This document shows, piece after piece, positions 14,983 through 26,592 of a DNA stretch of 44,653 nucleotides. Under the pieces are notes generated by a model. It was not told where the DNA came from, did not search any database, and saw only the letters and a program-made list of their open reading frames with translations. The DNA lies in the NCBI GenBank assembly GCA_948434005.1, contig CAOJEH010000005.1:87372-132024 (forward strand). The letters are read 5' to 3'. Source of the DNA: an uncultured Mycoplasmatota bacterium (lineage in GTDB: Bacteria; Bacillota_I; Bacilli_A; RF39; UBA660). Numbering within the stretch: position 1 is the first letter of the stretch; each line of letters starts with the position of its first letter. Position numbers and translations under genes: made by a program.

Positions 14983-15019
14983 AATAATACTAAAATAAAA
15001 AGAAAAGTAGGTGTTTGTT

Positions 15020-15566
15020 ATGAATTTATATGTTATTAGGCATGGTCAAACCGAGTGGAATGTAATGAAAAAAATGCAAGGAAGTATAGATATACCATTG
15101 AATAAAAAAGGGATTAAACAAGCCTATATTACAAAGAAAAATCTAGATCATATTTCAATTGATGTTATTTTTTGCTCACCACTTAAAAGAGCTAAACAAA
15201 CAGCAGAAATAATTAATAAGGGTAGAAACTTAGAAATAATATATGATGAACGCCTAAAAGAAAGAAACTACGGAGAATTTGAGGGGGAGCAAACAGGCCT
15301 TTGATTATAATTCTTTTTGGTCATATAATAAAAATTTAAATTATGAGAAGGCTGAGAATGTTCAAGAATTTTTTGAAAGAGTCTATCATTTTTTAGATGA
15401 AATAAAAGAAAAATATGCAGATAAGAATGTTTTAATCGTTTCACATGCAGGTATAATGAAGGTGGTTGAGTGTTATGCAAATGGTATGATGGATGATTGT
15501 GATATTGGTCCTTATTTACCTGACAATGCAAGTGTTTTAAAATATTCATTTACATATAAGGAGTAA
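15020..15566 (+). pseudogene. Histidine phosphatase (phosphoglycerate-mutase family) with a frameshift
   Basis: The first frame encodes the catalytic start L-Y-V-I-R-H-G-Q-T-E-W-N, then G-S-I-D-I-P-L-N-K-K-G and C-S-P-L-K-R-A-K-Q-T-A, with the phosphohistidine motif R-H-G near residue 8. It runs out at 15304. The rest of the protein lies in another frame to 15566 and contains V-S-H-A-G-I-M, the second catalytic His. The two frames join at a run of five G (15283-15287): removing one G gives G-E-F-E-G-S-K-Q-A-F-D, the normal family continuation. So the gene is disabled by one extra G, is phase variable, or is mis-assembled. Intact product would be ~180 aa. ATG 15020 has GTAGGTG upstream. Confidence 0.82.
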
Positions 15567-19032: not shown

Positions 19033-19061
19033 TTGACAAATAAGTGTAAATATGCTAATAT
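19033..19061 (+). promoter_or_regulatory. Strong promoter of the attenuated M20-GNAT operon
   Basis: Consensus TTGACA (19033-19038), 17-bp spacer, TAATAT (19056-19061) with an upstream TG giving an extended -10. It is the closest to consensus in the window. Transcription would start near 19068, leaving a ~305-nt leader before the M20 gene. Confidence 0.85.
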
Positions 19062-19116
19062 AATGACATCAGTGAGGAACTGGTGAATATAATAAAGAAG
19101 AAAGGATGTTATTTAT

Positions 19117-19179
19117 ATGAAAAAATTTATATTCAATAATACTTGGCGTCATATAGGTAACACTTATACATATCGATAA
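19117..19179 (+). CDS. 20-codon leader peptide of the attenuator
   Basis: A short frame M-K-K-F-I-F-N-N-T-W-R-H-I-G-N-T-Y-T-Y-R with an AAAGGA site upstream. Codons 16-18 overlap segment 1 of the RNA switch described next. It contains consecutive Trp-Arg-His codons (10-12) placed so that a ribosome paused there would leave segment 1 free. Such peptides act by being translated, not by their product. Confidence 0.7.
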   Translation: MKKFIFNNTWRHIGNTYTYR

Positions 19180-19297
19180 AAGTTTCGATTATGGGTATAA
19201 GTGGATTTTTGCATTGCTTATACCTGTATGAAAAATAAATGAACTAAACAATAAAAAGGAATACAGGTTTAAAACTATAACTTGTATTCCTTTTTTC
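19161..19297 (+). promoter_or_regulatory. Ribosome-mediated transcription attenuator (five RNA segments)
   Basis: Five segments pair in a chain. 1: CACTTATAC (19161-19169, inside the leader ORF). 2: GTATAAGTG (19195-19203). 3: CTTATACC (19217-19224) running into ACCTGTAT (19222-19229). 4: ATACAGGT (19261-19268). 5: the right arm at 19279-19295. Pair 1:2 is 9 perfect bp; 2:3 is 8 bp; 3:4 is 8 bp; 4:5 is a ~17-bp terminator stem (19253-19269 with 19279-19295, one G-U) ending in T6. Pairs 1:2 and 3:4 are compatible (ON); 2:3 and 4:5 are compatible (OFF). A ribosome covering segment 1 favours OFF; a ribosome held up earlier favours ON. The pairings are seen directly; the mechanism is inferred. 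Confidence 0.82.
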
Positions 19298-19374: not shown

Positions 19375-20412
19375 ATGAATGTAAAAGAAATATTAAAAAA
19401 GTTGGTTAGCTATAATACAATCAAAGATAATCAAAATAAAGAGATTATGGACTTTATTGAGAATTATTTAAGAAAGTATAATTTTACTATTAAAAGAATT
19501 AAGAAATGTTTAGTCGCTTATAATAGTGAAAAACCTAATATCGGGTTTGTTGGACACACAGATACAGTTGATTATGAATCATGGGATGGTGATCCATTTA
19601 CTCTTCAAGAAAATGAAGATAGGTTAATTGGTCTTGGTGCTTGTGATATGAAAGGTGGATTAGCTGCAATGTTATCTGCTATTACAAAATTAGATTTGAC
19701 TAAAAATAAATTAGCATTATATTTTACAAATGATGAAGAGATTAGTTTTGAAGGAATAAAAAATATTAGAGATTTTATTGTTCCTGAAAATATTATTATT
19801 GGGGAACCAACAAGCAATATACCTATTTATGGTACTAAAGGAGTTTTAGAATTAAAAATTGAATTTTATGGAATAAAGTGTCATTCATCAACTCCGGATA
19901 AAGGAGTTAGTGCAATTTATAAAAGCATTAAATTTATTGAAAGTATTCAAAATTATTATGAAAATAAAATTAAAAAGGAGATAGTATCAGACTTTGAAGT
20001 TCCTTATACAACAATGAATATAGGGATGATTAAAGGCGGAGAATCTGTTAATTCTGTGGCAGGAAAATGTGAAATTAGTATAGACTTTAGAATTGCAAAA
20101 AGAGAACATTTAGAAAGTATAATTGAAAAAGTTAAAGACTTATTAAAACAATATAATTCTAAATTAACAATAAAACAGAGTATTCCACCAAAGATAAATA
20201 AAACTGATATAGGATTCTTGGAAGAAATATCTTCAACAAAGCAAACAAAATGTTATCTAACTGAAGGCTCCTATATTGATAAGAATTTTATTATATTAGG
20301 ACCTGGTCCAGATACATCTCATCAAAAGAATGAATATGTAAATTTAAGTTCACTAAAAGAAACAGAAAAATTGTATAAAAAAATAATAGAGTTTTATAAT
20401 GAAGGGAAGTAG
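19375..20412 (+). CDS. M20 metallohydrolase, ArgE/DapE-like deacetylase
   Basis: The 345-aa protein is an M20-family zinc hydrolase, which removes acyl groups from N-acylated amino acids or cleaves dipeptides. All metal and catalytic motifs are present: G-H-T-D-T-V near residue 60, G-A-C-D-M-K-G-G near residue 88, N-D-E-E near residue 121, G-E-P-T near residue 143 and a final S-H-Q-K-N-E-Y-V (His ligand). A lid domain lies between residues ~160 and 270. It is ArgE-like, so acetylornithine or another N-acetyl amino acid is plausible. It is cotranscribed with the following GNAT gene (3-bp gap) and controlled by the attenuator upstream. No other arginine genes are nearby, so antibiotic or peptide substrates cannot be excluded. 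Confidence 0.85.
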   Translation: MNVKEILKKLVSYNTIKDNQNKEIMDFIENYLRKYNFTIKRIKKCLVAYNSEKPNIGFVGHTDTVDYESWDGDPFTLQENEDRLIGLGACDMKGGLAAMLSAITKLDLTKNKLALYFTNDEEISFEGIKNIRDFIVPENIIIGEPTSNIPIYGTKGVLELKIEFYGIKCHSSTPDKGVSAIYKSIKFIESIQNYYENKIKKEIVSDFEVPYTTMNIGMIKGGESVNSVAGKCEISIDFRIAKREHLESIIEKVKDLLKQYNSKLTIKQSIPPKINKTDIGFLEEISSTKQTKCYLTEGSYIDKNFIILGPGPDTSHQKNEYVNLSSLKETEKLYKKIIEFYNEGK

Positions 20413-20415
20413 AAT

Positions 20416-21045
20416 ATGAAAATAATAGATTACAATAGAAGTATAAATAAAAAGAAAATTGCCGATTCGGCATATAGAATTTGTGGAAATGCAAACTTTC
20501 CAGTTGAATATCAAGATGTTTATGAACATTTATTTGAAAATGATAATTTAATTTTAAAGCTATTGCTAAATGAAGAAAATAATTTAGCAGGTTTTGGAGT
20601 TTTTGAAAATTATAGATTATTTTTAGAAAGTCAGATAATAACAATGCTTTATTTATCCGGAATGGTTATTGATCCTAAATATCAAGGAAAAAATATTTCT
20701 AGAGAGATTATAAAGAATACTTATGCTCAAATACAAGCAGACTTAATTTCGCTACGAACTCAAAATATTGCTATGGCAAAATCTCTATTAGATATCTTTG
20801 ATGATAATTTATTTACAGTTCCGGGTGATATTAATAATGAAATATTGTCTTGTTTAAGACAAACTGCTCCATTTGTGGATATTGATGAATATGGGGTTAT
20901 TAGAGATTGTTATCCTAATCAATTATATTATAACTTAAGTGCTATACAAGATAATTTTGGTGTATGCCTACACTCAACAGATGCTTTAGGTGTTATAGTT
21001 GAACCAAGCAAGAATAAACAGAAGTTATTGTCTCTTTTTAATTAG
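20416..21045 (+). CDS. GNAT-fold acetyltransferase
   Basis: The 209-aa protein has a GNAT core: the beta4 strand M-L-Y-L-S-G-M-V-I-D-P-K-Y-Q-G-K-N-I-S-R-E-I around residues 76-97, with Q-G-K-N-I-S taking the place of the Q/R-x-x-G-x-G/A acetyl-CoA loop. An N-terminal half with F-E-N-D-N-L-I and F-G-V-F-E-N-Y-R fits beta1-3. The C-terminal ~100 residues (S-C-L-R-Q-T-A-P-F) are unusual for small GNATs. It starts 3 bp after the M20 gene with AAGGGAAG as ribosome binding site, so both come from the attenuated transcript. A deacylase and an acetyltransferase side by side suggest an acetyl-group cycle on one small molecule. Confidence 0.75.
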   Translation: MKIIDYNRSINKKKIADSAYRICGNANFPVEYQDVYEHLFENDNLILKLLLNEENNLAGFGVFENYRLFLESQIITMLYLSGMVIDPKYQGKNISREIIKNTYAQIQADLISLRTQNIAMAKSLLDIFDDNLFTVPGDINNEILSCLRQTAPFVDIDEYGVIRDCYPNQLYYNLSAIQDNFGVCLHSTDALGVIVEPSKNKQKLLSLFN

Positions 21046-21104: not shown

Positions 21105-21302
21105 TTTGATAAGCTTTTTTCTTTTGTCAAAATAAGAAAAATATCACATAGAATTTACTATGAGAATACTTAAATATAAAATTTGTTTGTTAATAATATT
21201 ACTCTTAATGGTATTTAGCCTAAATATAGTAACTGCACATCATAGTGATGATAATCTAGATCTTTTTGGCAAAGTCATTACAGTTGATGCTGGACATGGG
21301 GG
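21105..21302 (+). repeat. Right copy of the ~200-bp direct repeat
   Basis: This copy matches 17201-17400 and contains the intact start of the amidase gene. The T run of the terminator is present but its left stem arm is missing, so the left copy keeps the ancestral junction with the EamA gene. Confidence 0.85.
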
Positions 21303-21828
21303 TCGCGATCCTGGAACTAGATTTGGTAATATTTTAGAGAAAAACTTGAATTTAGAAATATCAAAGAAACTAGAAAAAGAACTTATTAAAAATGGTGCGA
21401 TTGTTTATATGATAAGGGAAAGTGATGTTTCTCTAAATTCTAAATACGATGTTAGAAAAAAAAGAAGTGATTTATATAGAAGAATTAAATTTATAGAAGA
21501 TAAAAAAAGTGATTTATATTTATCAATTCACCTTAATTGGTATAATAATGCTTATTATGGGGGAATAGAGATTCTATATAACAATATTAATAAAAATAAT
21601 AAATTACTTGCTGGTAATATTAGGGATTCATTTATTGATAGTAATATTAAAACTAGAGAAATAAAGACAACTAATCTATATATTTATAGAAATACTAATA
21701 CACCCGGAGTTTTAATAGAATGCGGTTTTCTATCTAATAAAAATGATAGATATTTACTACAGAAACCTAGTTATCAAAAGAAGATAGCTACTGTAATAAC
21801 TGATGGTGTTATTGATTTTTTTAACTAA
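21160..21828 (+). CDS. N-acetylmuramoyl-L-alanine amidase (CwlD-like, Amidase_3)
   Basis: This 222-aa exported enzyme cleaves the bond between MurNAc and L-Ala in peptidoglycan. It has a signal peptide (residues 1-26, hydrophobic L-L-I-I-L-L-L-M-V-F), then the zinc motif V-D-A-G-H-G-G-R-D-P-G near residue 42, a catalytic Glu in N-I-L-E-K-N-L-N-L, the S-I-H-L-N zinc ligand near residue 121, and V-L-I-E-C-G-F-L-S-N near residue 186. Size and order resemble CwlD of sporeformers. No clear Shine-Dalgarno precedes the ATG (it is only ~5 nt after a TAGAAT), so translation may be inefficient or leaderless. A truncated duplicate precedes it 3.9 kb upstream. Confidence 0.9.
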   Translation: MRILKYKICLLIILLLMVFSLNIVTAHHSDDNLDLFGKVITVDAGHGGRDPGTRFGNILEKNLNLEISKKLEKELIKNGAIVYMIRESDVSLNSKYDVRKKRSDLYRRIKFIEDKKSDLYLSIHLNWYNNAYYGGIEILYNNINKNNKLLAGNIRDSFIDSNIKTREIKTTNLYIYRNTNTPGVLIECGFLSNKNDRYLLQKPSYQKKIATVITDGVIDFFN

Positions 21829-21858
21829 CTATTATCTTAGATTTAAAATATTCAAAAT

Positions 21859-21916
21859 AGACTAATCTTAAAGTTATTTTATAGTATTAAATTTGCTTTG
21901 AAATTAGTCTTTTTAT
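21859..21916 (+). terminator. Long-loop terminator after amidase gene
   Basis: AGACTAAT (21859-21866) pairs with ATTAGTCT (21903-21910) across a 36-nt loop, followed by TTTTT. Confidence 0.5.
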
Positions 21917-21917
21917 A

Positions 21918-21946
21918 TTGTAAAGTTGTAAAAAAAAATGTATAAT
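21918..21946 (+). promoter_or_regulatory. Promoter of the type VII secretion operon
   Basis: TTGTAA (21918-21923), 17-bp spacer, TATAAT (21941-21946) with TG immediately before. The essC-like start follows at 21994. Confidence 0.75.
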
Positions 21947-21993
21947 TAAATATAGTAGGGTACTATCAAAAAGAATAGAATGAGGTGAATCCA

Positions 21994-24900
21994 ATGATTG
22001 TTAGACTTATTAAGAAATCTAAGATATATAATTTTTCTTTGCCTAATAAAGTATCTGGTAGTTATTGGATTGAAGATAATGATAGATATGGTAATACTAG
22101 AAACTTAATTAATGTTGAAGCAGAAAATGGTCTATGGAAAATAAAAAGTGACTTTGAAACAAAAATATTATCTGGTAATAATATACTTGAATCAGCATAT
22201 TTAAAGGAATATACAATGTATTTCTTAAAGATAAATACAGATAATGAGTTTGTTATTTTATATTGCTCTCCTTCAATGGATTCTCAACTTAGTAAGCTTA
22301 AAGTTAATAGAAATGGTGAATTTATAATTGGTAGTGGTAATCAAACACATATAACATATTCTTATCCTTTAGTTTCAAAACAACATGCTAAACTTAGTTA
22401 TGCAGATGGACATTGGGTTATAAAAGATTTAAATAGTAAATATGGTACTTATGTTAATGATCAAGCAGTTAATACTAAGGTATTAGAGTATGGCGATATT
22501 ATTTTTGTAATGGGACTTAGAATAATTGTAATGAAGGATTATTTAGTTTTAAATAATATTTTAAATATGGTTAGTTATGATAGTAATAGTTTTACTTTAT
22601 TAGAACCAGTTATTCAAAAATTTGATGGTGTAGAATCTATAGAAGATGAGAGTATTGATTTTTATAAGACAGAGGATTATTTCTTTAGGTCTCCTAGATT
22701 CAAATCAAAGATAGAACCAGTAAATATTGTAGTTGAAGATCCTCCTGCTAAAGAAAATCAAGAACAAATGCCTGCGATATATACAATTGGTCCAATGATA
22801 ACTATGGCTATGAGCTCTGTTGCTATGAGTTTTTCTTCAATAGCAGGTCTTATTAATGGAACAATGGAATTTAAGAATGCTATGCCATCATTAGTTATGT
22901 CTTTTGCTATGTTATTAACTATGTTGTTATGGCCACTTCTTTCTAATAAATATCAACAAAAACAACGCAAAAAACGTGAAGAACTACGTCAAAATAAATA
23001 TATGGAATATGTCCAAGAAAAACATCAAAGTATACTTTCTGAAATGAAGGTTCAAAGACAAATATTAGTAGATAATTATCTACCTTTAGATGTAGTTGAA
23101 AATATTGTTAAGGGTAAAAAAAGAAACTTATGGGAAAGAGAATTAAAACAAGATGACTTCCTAGATTTACGTTTAGGAATAGGATCTTCTGAATTGCAAG
23201 GAGATATAGTATTCCCAACACCTAAATTTGAACTTGATAATGATAATTTAAGAGATTTAGTTTTAAAGGTAGCTAGTGAATCAAGAGTACTTACCGATGT
23301 TCCTATATCATTATCTTTTGTTAGAAATTATATTTCTGCAATTATTGGTGATGGTAGTCAAAAGCAAAAGTTTATTGAAGGTCTACTTCTTCAAATGGTT
23401 GCTTTTCATAGTTATGAAGATTTAAAAATAGTCTTATTTACTAATGAAAATAATTCTTCATTATGGAATTATTTGAAAGTATTACCTCATTGCTGGAGCA
23501 ATGATAAGTCTATTAGATTTTTTGCTACTAATAAAGATGAGAGAAAAGAATTATCGCTATATTTAGAAAAAGAATTTCAAAATAGAAGATCTTCTGATGA
23601 TAATTCAAATGTTAATGAGTTACCATACTATAGTTTTTCGCCATATTACTTTATTATAACTGATGATTATAAATCAATAAGGGATATAGAGATAATAAAA
23701 GATGTATGTAGTTTAGAAGCTAATTTAGGCTTTAGTTTATGTATAATTAGTCCTAGATTAACTAATTTACCTAATAAGTGTAAAACGTTTATAAGTATAG
23801 GGGATGTAAAATCAGGTGTATTTGAAAATGAATTAGTCTCTAATAAACAAAAAGAATTTGTTGCAGATGTTAGTAGTAACCTAAATATGCATGAGATATG
23901 TAGACAGCTTTCAAATATTCCTATTGATATTGCTAAAGAAGAGAAAAATATTCCGTCTGCAGTTACATTCTTAGAAATGTATAATATTGGTTTAATAGAG
24001 CAGTTAAATATTTTAAATCGTTGGAAACATAATGATCCTACTAAATCATTACAAGTACCAATAGGTATAGATAAAAATGGTGAACAATTTCAGCTAGACT
24101 TACACGAGAAATATTATGGACCACATGGCCTTGTTGCAGGTATGACTGGTTCAGGTAAAAGTGAACTTCTTTTATCATATATATTATCTATGGCAGTTAA
24201 TTTCCATCCGTATGAAGTTTCTTTTGTTTTAATAGATTATAAAGGTGGAGGTTTAGCAGGAGTATTTCAAAATAAAGAAAATGGTATAAAGCTTCCTCAT
24301 TTAGCAGGTGCTATTACTAACTTGGATACTATTGAGATGAATAGAGCTTTGGCTTCAATCCAAAGTGAGCTTAGAAGAAGACAAAGAATGTTTAATATAG
24401 CACGTGATAATTTAAATGAAAGTACTATTGATATTTATAAGTATCAGCGTTTATATAGAGAGGGTATGGTAGATACTCCTATCTCTCATTTATTTATAAT
24501 ATCCGATGAGTTTGCAGAGTTAAAATCACAACAACCTGAATTTATGGACCAGCTTATATCAACAGCGCGTATCGGTCGTAGTTTAGGAGTACATTTAATT
24601 TTGGCAACTCAAAAACCAAGTGGAGTTGTAGATGATCAAATTTGGTCAAACTCTAAATTTAAAATATGTTTAAAAGTTCAAGATAATTCTGATAGTATGG
24701 ATATGATTAAACGTCCAGATGCAGCAGCTTTAAAAAATCCTGGAAGATTCTATTTACAAGTTGGTTATAATGAATTATTTGCATTAGGACAATCTGCATG
24801 GACAGGAGCACAGTATTATCCTACAGAAAAAAGAAAGAAAAATATTGATAATGATGTAGACTTTATTGATAACGTAGGTAATATTATAAAATCAATGGAT

Positions 24901-26592
24901 ACTTCTAATAATGTAGCTAAAGTAAAAGCAGAGGGTGAAGAATTATCGGGAATTGTTAAATATATTGTTGATACTGCAAAGGCAGAAAATATAAAGATTC
25001 CACAGTTATGGTTAGATAGAATTCCTGATTTTATTTATATAGAAGACTTAAAGAAAAAGTATCAGTATAATACTCCTAGTAATGATGTTGAACTAGTAAT
25101 TGGAGAATATGATGACCCTGATAATCAAAAACAATTCTTACTTAAGTTATCATTAATGACAGATGGTAATACAATTATTTATGGTTCTACAGGTTCCGGT
25201 AAAGAAATACTTCTTTCTAGTATTATATATTCTGCTATTACAAGTTATAATCCAGATGAAGTTAATTTCTATATTATGGATTTTGGAGCAGAAATTCTTA
25301 ATATGTTTTCTAATGCTCCTCAAGTGGGAAATATTTTATCTTCTAGTGCTACTGAACAGATAGAAAACTTATTTAAAATGCTTAATTCAATATTAGAAGA
25401 ACGTAAAAAACTTTTTGCTGACTATAATGGTTCCTATAGTTTTTATAAAGAACATAGTAATAAAAAAGTTCCTATAGTTACAGTAATTATAAATAATTAT
25501 GAAGGCTTTATTGAAACATATGAGGATTATGAAGATATATTATTGCAGCTTACTAGAGAAGGATCTAAGTATGGAATTGTATTTATTTTAACAAGTAATA
25601 GTACTAATGCAATTAGATATCGTATGAAGCAAAACTTTAAAAATAATTTATGTTTACAATTTAATGATTCATCGGATTATAGTGATGTTTTATCTGCAGT
25701 AGGAAAGAAAGTTCCTTCTAAAGTATTTGGTAGAGGTCTAGTTGAATTAGATAATGTATATGAATTTCAAACTGCTTATGCCTATAAAAGTGAGAAACTA
25801 TCAGATTATATTAAGATAATATCTTCTAGATTAAAGGATATTTGTAAAATTAGTGCTGCTAAAATACCAGTTTTACCTGAAGTGGTATCAATATCAGATG
25901 TAGAAGAAGCACTTGGAAATTTATCTACTGTACCAGTTGGAATATCTAAAAATGATTTATCTATTGCAACATTTGACTTTGACTCTAATCCAGTGACACT
26001 CGTAACAGCATTAGATTTCTATAATTATAGGGAATTTTATAAATCGATGATTAATATCATTTCTAAAATATCATATAAGAATGTTGTTATTATAGATGCA
26101 GCTAAAACATTTAAAAAGAGTGATGTATCAGTAGAATATCATAATACTAATTTTGATGATATAGTATCTTCTATAAATAATAAGTATGTAAAACAAAAAG
26201 CTATATATGAAGCTAATAATTATGATGAGAATGCTTTACAAAAAGAAGCTAAGACTACTTATTTTATATTTGGTATATCTAATTTATTTACAAGAATAGA
26301 TGATAGTAATAAAGAGGTATTCCAAAACGCTATAAGTGATACTAAGAATTTTGGCCTAGATAATTATATTATAATAGATAGTTCTGATAAACTTAAAAAT
26401 TCTGCTTATGATGCTTGGTATAAAGAATCTATTGATGATTCTCAAGGAATATGGTTAGGTAATGGTATATCTGAACAATATACGTTGAAACTATTATCTA
26501 CACCTAGAGAACTTAGAGAAGAAATAGATGAAGACTTTGGATATATTGTAAAGAATGGAAAAGCTACTTTGGTTAAATTAGTACAAAAATAG
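21994..26592 (+). CDS. essC: Type VIIb secretion ATPase EssC/YukB-like
   Basis: The 1532-aa membrane ATPase is the motor of Firmicutes type VII secretion. From the N-terminus: an FHA-like domain (1-90), a second, clear FHA domain (~105-190; R-N-G-E-F-I-I-G-S-G, S-K-Q-H-A-K-L, N-S-K-Y-G-T-Y-V-N), two membrane helices (~262-314), a long stalk, then FtsK/SpoIIIE domains. Domain 1 has Walker A G-M-T-G-S-G-K-S-E at ~716 and Walker B I-I-S-D-E-F at ~838. Domain 2 Walker A reads G-S-T-G-S-G-K-E (~1064), with Glu where Ser/Thr should be. Domain 3 lacks a Walker A. So only domain 1 seems fully competent, as known for the family. ATG 21994 has GAGGTG 6 bp upstream. First gene of a four-gene operon. Confidence 0.92.
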   Translation: MIVRLIKKSKIYNFSLPNKVSGSYWIEDNDRYGNTRNLINVEAENGLWKIKSDFETKILSGNNILESAYLKEYTMYFLKINTDNEFVILYCSPSMDSQLSKLKVNRNGEFIIGSGNQTHITYSYPLVSKQHAKLSYADGHWVIKDLNSKYGTYVNDQAVNTKVLEYGDIIFVMGLRIIVMKDYLVLNNILNMVSYDSNSFTLLEPVIQKFDGVESIEDESIDFYKTEDYFFRSPRFKSKIEPVNIVVEDPPAKENQEQMPAIYTIGPMITMAMSSVAMSFSSIAGLINGTMEFKNAMPSLVMSFAMLLTMLLWPLLSNKYQQKQRKKREELRQNKYMEYVQEKHQSILSEMKVQRQILVDNYLPLDVVENIVKGKKRNLWERELKQDDFLDLRLGIGSSELQGDIVFPTPKFELDNDNLRDLVLKVASESRVLTDVPISLSFVRNYISAIIGDGSQKQKFIEGLLLQMVAFHSYEDLKIVLFTNENNSSLWNYLKVLPHCWSNDKSIRFFATNKDERKELSLYLEKEFQNRRSSDDNSNVNELPYYSFSPYYFIITDDYKSIRDIEIIKDVCSLEANLGFSLCIISPRLTNLPNKCKTFISIGDVKSGVFENELVSNKQKEFVADVSSNLNMHEICRQLSNIPIDIAKEEKNIPSAVTFLEMYNIGLIEQLNILNRWKHNDPTKSLQVPIGIDKNGEQFQLDLHEKYYGPHGLVAGMTGSGKSELLLSYILSMAVNFHPYEVSFVLIDYKGGGLAGVFQNKENGIKLPHLAGAITNLDTIEMNRALASIQSELRRRQRMFNIARDNLNESTIDIYKYQRLYREGMVDTPISHLFIISDEFAELKSQQPEFMDQLISTARIGRSLGVHLILATQKPSGVVDDQIWSNSKFKICLKVQDNSDSMDMIKRPDAAALKNPGRFYLQVGYNELFALGQSAWTGAQYYPTEKRKKNIDNDVDFIDNVGNIIKSMDTSNNVAKVKAEGEELSGIVKYIVDTAKAENIKIPQLWLDRIPDFIYIEDLKKKYQYNTPSNDVELVIGEYDDPDNQKQFLLKLSLMTDGNTIIYGSTGSGKEILLSSIIYSAITSYNPDEVNFYIMDFGAEILNMFSNAPQVGNILSSSATEQIENLFKMLNSILEERKKLFADYNGSYSFYKEHSNKKVPIVTVIINNYEGFIETYEDYEDILLQLTREGSKYGIVFILTSNSTNAIRYRMKQNFKNNLCLQFNDSSDYSDVLSAVGKKVPSKVFGRGLVELDNVYEFQTAYAYKSEKLSDYIKIISSRLKDICKISAAKIPVLPEVVSISDVEEALGNLSTVPVGISKNDLSIATFDFDSNPVTLVTALDFYNYREFYKSMINIISKISYKNVVIIDAAKTFKKSDVSVEYHNTNFDDIVSSINNKYVKQKAIYEANNYDENALQKEAKTTYFIFGISNLFTRIDDSNKEVFQNAISDTKNFGLDNYIIIDSSDKLKNSAYDAWYKESIDDSQGIWLGNGISEQYTLKLLSTPRELREEIDEDFGYIVKNGKATLVKLVQK

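Follow-up and report, generated by a model that had tools for sequence, protein, structure and literature searches.

The question raised by the DNA ahead of an M20 metallohydrolase gene in the window (the whole 44,653 nt stretch analysed here, from an uncultured Mycoplasmatota bacterium) is which signal it reads, and for which genes. A first-pass annotation had described positions 19033 to 19297 as a ribosome-mediated attenuator of an M20-GNAT gene pair. The reading preferred here, at a probability of about two in three, is an attenuator that responds to charged tRNA-His, and to charged tRNA-Trp as well within the window's clade, and that controls a mobile M20 hydrolase module, likely for amino-acid salvage.

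The leader ORF and its alternative RNA pairings

The leader features and the two genes behind them are on the plus strand. A sequence scan identifies a promoter-like site at 19033–19061, made up of TTGACA (19033–19038), a 17 nt spacer and TAATAT (19056–19061), with a TG before the -10. Such matches are common in AT-rich DNA of this kind (5 observed, 4.3 expected); TTGACA is also found at the corresponding position of L113, a distant paralog. The leader ORF (19117–19179) has 20 codons, encoding MKKFIFNNTWRHIGNTYTYR, and its own ribosome binding site, AAAGGA (19101–19106), of which AAGGA is invariant in a six-leader alignment. An ORF of similar size is present in 11 other leaders, the length across all 12 being 20 to 22 codons.

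Stem searches and comparison of leaders define the pairing segments. Segment 1 (19161–19169), within the leader ORF, pairs over 9 bp with 19195–19203 of segment 2 (19190–19204). Segment 2 can instead pair with 19214–19228 of segment 3 (19214–19231), and 19222–19229 of segment 3 can pair over 8 bp with 19261–19268 of segment 4 (19253–19269) as an antiterminator. The entire arm of segment 4 also forms a 17 bp helix with 19279–19295, followed by U6; segment 5 and its U-tract (19279–19296) make up the 3' arm of an intrinsic terminator. The near-consensus promoter, the leader ORF with its binding site, the four pairings and the location of segment 1 inside the ORF are thus all present as the first-pass annotation described them, while the 8 bp it gave for 2:3 holds as the core of a helix that reaches 15 bp when G-U pairs are counted. 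Two further pairings were absent from its list. Segment 0 (19107–19120), which spans the leader start codon, forms 14 bp with segment 1a (19149–19162), a conserved early hairpin between the start region and the His-codon region that recurs in the tabulated leaders, and 19149–19159 of segment 1a forms 11 bp with 19221–19231 of segment 3.

Seven stems of -9 kcal/mol or better are observed where 0.35 are expected, there is a chain of four mutually exclusive stems, and none of 1000 dinucleotide-preserving shuffles matches the stem number, the strength of the best stem or the length of the exclusive chain. A chance origin of the pairings is excluded. Rfam models at gathering score match no family across the window, T-box RF00230 included, and a consensus terminator scan lists none at the locus, the scan requiring a loop of 3–8 and the loop here being 9.

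All four pairings from 1:2 to 4:5 hold in 11 out of 11 tabulated leaders, including those with divergent sequences. Compensatory changes across relatives, which the first-pass annotation had proposed as a check, are found in two places. In the terminator, two pairs are changed on both sides between G-C and A-U among six close leaders. In 1:2, the window's CACUUAUAC/GUAUAAGUG is GCUCAUAC/GUAUGAGU in L103 and GCACUUGU/ACAAGUGC in L113 and L114, altered together and still paired in each case. The covariation in segments 1 to 3 comes from these three divergent leaders; the six close leaders are uninformative here because these segments hardly vary among them. The 0:1a hairpin is present in L103 in an altered version with one U-U mismatch, and is shorter in L113 and L114. 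It is very probable that the locus carries a ribosome-mediated transcription attenuator.

Relatives of the leader and the genes behind it

The gene behind the leader (19375–20412) encodes an ArgE/DapE-like M20 metallohydrolase of 345 aa, whose catalytic and metal-binding residues are intact and conserved across five orthologs. Its nearest solved relative is the acetylornithine deacetylase 7rsf, but it scores 220 bits against the acetylornithine deacetylase model TIGR01892, where the cut-off is 297.7, and is below all curated cut-offs among the NCBIfam models matched, as a member of a related M20 subfamily. The next gene (20416–21045) starts 3 bases after the M20 stop codon and encodes a divergent GNAT-like protein of 209 aa, which matches Pfam GNAT at 20.3 bits (gathering score 23.6), with weak matches in all five orthologs. 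A PDB sequence search with it gives no match, and its fold model is unusable (pLDDT 38). Just 3' of the module, 21160–26592 holds genes for a CwlD-like N-acetylmuramoyl-L-alanine amidase and, after it, a complete EssC of type VII secretion (1535 aa). Peptidoglycan amidases or hydrolases are near the module in L103, L080 and L067 as well as at 21160 in the window, which may be coincidence. Elsewhere in the window, a histidine-phosphatase-like gene (15011–15566) is seemingly frameshifted near 15290 into two overlapping frames.

There are 12 homologous leaders, every one upstream of an M20 gene. The window's M20 protein belongs to a clade of ten with support of 100/100, and the leader is present in all nine members with upstream DNA; the contig of the tenth, L065, begins inside the M20 gene and is outside the count. 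A tenth leader, that of L080, precedes an M20 gene truncated at the contig end, and two others precede the distant M20 paralogs L113 and L114. Upstream DNA of the distant paralogs L104, L105, L106, L107 and L109 lacks the leader, in a comparison that omits L108, L110 and L112. Relatives that keep the genes and lose the leader, the case named in the first-pass annotation as contrary evidence, do not occur in the window's M20 clade. The M20 gene of L100 (L100:482-1525) has an in-frame TGA, and the leader ahead of it looks intact. In 386 genomes of the same family the leader-core pattern has exact matches in five genomes, a reversed control pattern has none, and the M20 profile matches 17; at E <= 1e-50, a sample of 394 further genomes from the class gives no match to the profile.

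The partner of the M20 gene varies. A GNAT-protein scan of genome contigs gives four MAG loci, all of which have M20 and GNAT together. The GNAT is absent from L082, L100, L103 and L113; in L102 a histidine-racemase-like gene takes its place, and in L114 a different GNAT. From gene order, the leader tracks the M20 gene and not the M20-GNAT pair, which corrects the earlier claim of control over the pair; an attenuator before an ArgE-like M20 gene and a GNAT is borne out. Unrelated-looking GNAT genes adjoin the distant M20 paralogs of L104 and L114 (L104:719-1498; L114:1145-1495, minus), so that the pairing of M20 with a GNAT recurs.

The L102 partner (L102:738-1502, minus strand) matches HisR and CntK at about 1e-24, these being the only NCBIfam families matching it, with none of the DapF models doing so. 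Its scores are below the cut-offs for CntK (87.6 against 400 bits) and HisR (84.7 against 300 bits), and both cysteine motifs, CGN and CGS, are present, so that a D-histidine connection is possible. In L065 a trpS gene (L065:1620-2612) is located 24 nt behind the GNAT, and is the sole trpS detected in its MAG. It is 47% identical to trpS of the genome of L067 and 31–33% identical to those of three other carriers. The encoded TrpRS has TLAN in place of the TIGN of the solved TrpRS, and retains the His that corresponds to Bst His43. Searches for trpB find it in all 14 control genomes and in none of six carriers, so that these hosts probably rely on an external supply of Trp.

The neighbourhoods, like the partner genes, vary among genomes and the distribution is patchy. 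Because the neighbours differ, and a serine recombinase is directly upstream of the module in L082, the M20 module probably moves horizontally. Nucleotide BLAST of the leader against plasmids and phages gives no real match, and neither protein and neither of two leader patterns has a match in scans of viral contigs. Other weak in-genome DNA matches, one of them inside an ORF, looked like AT-rich chance and were set aside.

Putative sensing codons and the predicted ribosome stall

His is found at the same position in all 12 leaders (codon 12 in the window, 19150–19152) and is tandem in six of them. Trp is found in nine (codon 10 in the window, 19144–19146), and as Trp-Trp in L068, both codons being predicted stall sites; in the proteins of the window, His makes up 1.2% and Trp 0.6% of residues. 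The other peptides are MKKIIINNTWRHIGNTYTYR (L066), MKRMVMINTWRHIGNTYTYRW (L067 and L080), MKTLKTYKTWWNHIGNTYTKNS (L068), MKKIINNKTWRHMGNTYTNR (L082), MRKTIINNAWHHMGNTYTYR (L100), MEKFKMNNTWRHHIGNTYTKKH (L101), MKRITMNFNWHHIGNTYTHR (L102), MKITRFNRKHHIINAHTIRH (L103), MFKNMILLNHHYNSLHLLIRH (L113) and MLKNMQFLDHHNSLHLLIRH (L114). His-His tandems include those of L100, L101 and L102, and His occurs without Trp in L103, L113 and L114, the variants of the sensing codons being His-His, Trp-His-His, Trp-Arg-His and Trp-Trp-Asn-His. Thr9 and Arg11 are substituted in some leaders. Of the starvation signals suggested earlier for codons 10 to 12, His and Trp are therefore upheld, and Arg, which is not conserved, is not. 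A stepwise change from His to Trp along the tree was considered and is unsupported, as L100 (WHH) nests among WRH members and the inner forks are weak.

The HIGNTYT part of the peptide is conserved at the nucleotide level (CATATRGGTAACACTTATAC) because segments 1a and 1 are within it. By comparison, the M20 codons for the same residue are just 59% identical between the window and L068. Different peptides occupy the HIGNTYT place in L103, L113 and L114, with pairing retained. Variation is otherwise in the N-terminus of the leader, the end of the ORF (C-termini YR, YRW, KNS, KKH, HR and NR) and the linker, with segments 1 to 3 almost invariant.

The effect of a stalled ribosome was modelled by folding the transcript as far as segment 4, with about 14 bases masked 5' of the P site and 9–13 bases beyond the first base of the A site. 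For the window, a stall at Trp10 or Arg11 makes 3:4 near certain and one at Ile13 or later favours 2:3; His12 is borderline, its ON or OFF call varying with the assumed ribosome edge. In each of the nine leaders with a Trp codon, a stall there favours 3:4, with a mean margin of +0.55 to +0.99 in six and a weak one of +0.20 to +0.31 in L082, L100 and L102, and His11 is better placed than Trp in L100 and L102. In leaders with His but no Trp, a stall at the first His favours 3:4 as well. A ribosome late in the ORF gives 2:3, clearly so in 9 out of 12 leaders, although the margin is small in several with the ribosome exactly at the stop codon. In L067, L080 and L103, 3:4 is favoured for a far broader range of stall sites. 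Ribosome-free RNA is ambiguous in its folding state.

From this geometry we infer stalling and antitermination of the following kind. With ample His and Trp, the leader ribosome would reach the stop codon and mask segments 1a and 1, so that 2:3 and then 4:5 would form and transcription would terminate. In shortage it would halt at Trp10 (or His12), covering 1a and exposing segment 1; 1:2 and 3:4 would then form, blocking the terminator, and M20 would be transcribed. The hairpin 0:1a over the leader start codon may synchronise RNA polymerase with the first ribosome. Since the terminator far outweighs the antiterminator in strength once the RNA is complete, the switch would have to be kinetic, depending on the order of events during transcription. 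As a leader with predicted His/Trp stall codons is kept in all close relatives with upstream DNA, the genes are probably on when the cell is short of His or Trp. The His-His tandems, the Trp-Trp of L068, the trpS of L065 and the racemase-like partner in L102 agree independently on these two amino acids; His is quite likely a signal throughout the leader family, and Trp, with a little less assurance, in the window's clade.

Sensing of Trp only was a first idea, dropped once His-His leaders emerged. It may still be that the window's clade senses Trp alone, with His kept only since CAT falls in segment 1a. Trp10 is the best-placed conserved codon in the window and belongs to none of the pairing segments, folding leaves His12 borderline, and the Trp-Trp of L068 and the trpS of L065 point the same way; this is nonetheless doubtful given the His-His tandems of L100, L101 and L102, the His-only leaders of L103, L113 and L114 and the racemase-like partner in L102. 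Those tandems, and Trp-Trp, at the sensing place also argue against drug sensing in the manner of tet, erm and ABC-F leaders, in which a ribosome-targeting drug would stall translation of the leader and switch on a detoxification operon. Such leaders have the general logic in common with this one, and the antitermination for many stall positions in L067, L080 and L103 would suit them. However, codon identity and RNA pairing are all that is conserved here, the peptide varies at both ends with no drug-arrest motif, the leader is by eye unrelated to those of tet(M), tet(O) and tet(S), and M20 and GNAT both fall short of any curated resistance family. Drug sensing is disfavoured and improbable, and with it the drug-induced detoxification module of the first-pass annotation. 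Least probable of all is a TnaC-like arrest peptide that responds to a small molecule in the exit tunnel, with Trp10 close to the start and release blocked at the stop codon: in most leaders a conserved Trp precedes the stop by about 11 residues, but the C-terminus is variable, Trp is absent from three leaders, and the central codons are conserved as nucleotides, as RNA pairing demands.

The same attenuator could instead serve resistance to inhibitors of HisRS or TrpRS, either Trojan-horse aminoacyl-nucleotides or indolmycin-like compounds. The drug would mimic starvation, M20 would cleave it, the GNAT would acetylate it and a spare TrpRS, as in L065, would replace the target. The divergence of the L065 trpS from those of three other carriers and its TLAN motif fit this, as do the patchy distribution and the recombinase beside L082, and the indolmycin-resistant TrpRS of Streptomyces coelicolor, trpRS1, is reportedly regulated by attenuation (a finding attributed to Vecchione and Sello in 2010, cited in PMC4787780). 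A hydrolase with a GNAT is also like MccF with MccE of microcin C immunity (PMC7157772). Against these, the GNAT is frequently missing, metabolism better fits the racemase-like partner and the His-His leaders, and trpS occurs in one relative only, where the TrpRS retains the His at the Bst His43 place and the gene is the only one found in its MAG, so that it need not be a spare copy. Resistance of this kind is the main rival on function, though rather unlikely. Salvage of His or Trp fits best, since the partners (GNAT, histidine-racemase-like gene, trpS) vary with His or Trp themes while M20 is constant, and is somewhat favoured over detoxification. M20 would most likely release His or Trp from acylated compounds or from peptides, in hosts that probably cannot make Trp.

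Known attenuators and the place of this family

In the trp and his attenuators of enterobacteria, a stall at starved codons frees an antiterminator segment and completion of the leader gives the terminator. The proposed switch shares this starved-codon stall, but they serve biosynthesis where a mobile hydrolase gene is served here, and the leader here also has a hairpin over its start codon. As with S. coelicolor trpRS1, it would be a case of ribosome-mediated Trp attenuation outside trp biosynthesis, and the L065 operon has a trpS; the host, however, is unrelated, and the leader here precedes M20, while just one relative has the trpS, placed at the far end. The his operon attenuator of enterobacteria is described together with candidate His attenuators, with His leader peptides before his operons, in Bacillota: the B. 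cereus group, Eubacteriales and Erysipelotrichales (PMC9413887). These Bacillota leaders likewise combine an ORF carrying His codons in tandem with hairpins that exclude one another and an intrinsic terminator, but they have 3–5 consecutive His before his operons, compared with one or two His, usually with Trp, before an M20 salvage or detoxification gene here. The S. aureus ilv-leu leader (PMC5794164) is also a ribosome-mediated amino-acid attenuator, for Leu, in a low-GC Gram-positive; unlike here, it has Leu codons and a biosynthetic operon. T-box leaders (RF00230) read tRNA charging too, but by direct tRNA binding, and are frequent in the carrier genomes, with 5–13 matches each. No report of such an attenuator on an M20 gene was found in the open-access literature. 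The mechanism is of a known class; the target operon and the turnover of sensing codons look new.

More tentatively, the leaders may form a portable family of tRNA-charging attenuators, retuned in amino-acid specificity through exchange of one or two codons in the leader on a nearly fixed RNA switch, and travelling with an unrecognised module for His/Trp salvage or aaRS-inhibitor resistance that gains matching partners such as the racemase-like gene and trpS. On the preferred reading, T-box-rich genomes have retained a second, ribosome-based charging sensor on a horizontally moving hydrolase. If that reading is right, the leader codons would reveal the amino acid served by an uncharacterised M20 family and so lead directly to what the family does, and the leaders found in nature would be a ready series of codon swaps on a single switch.
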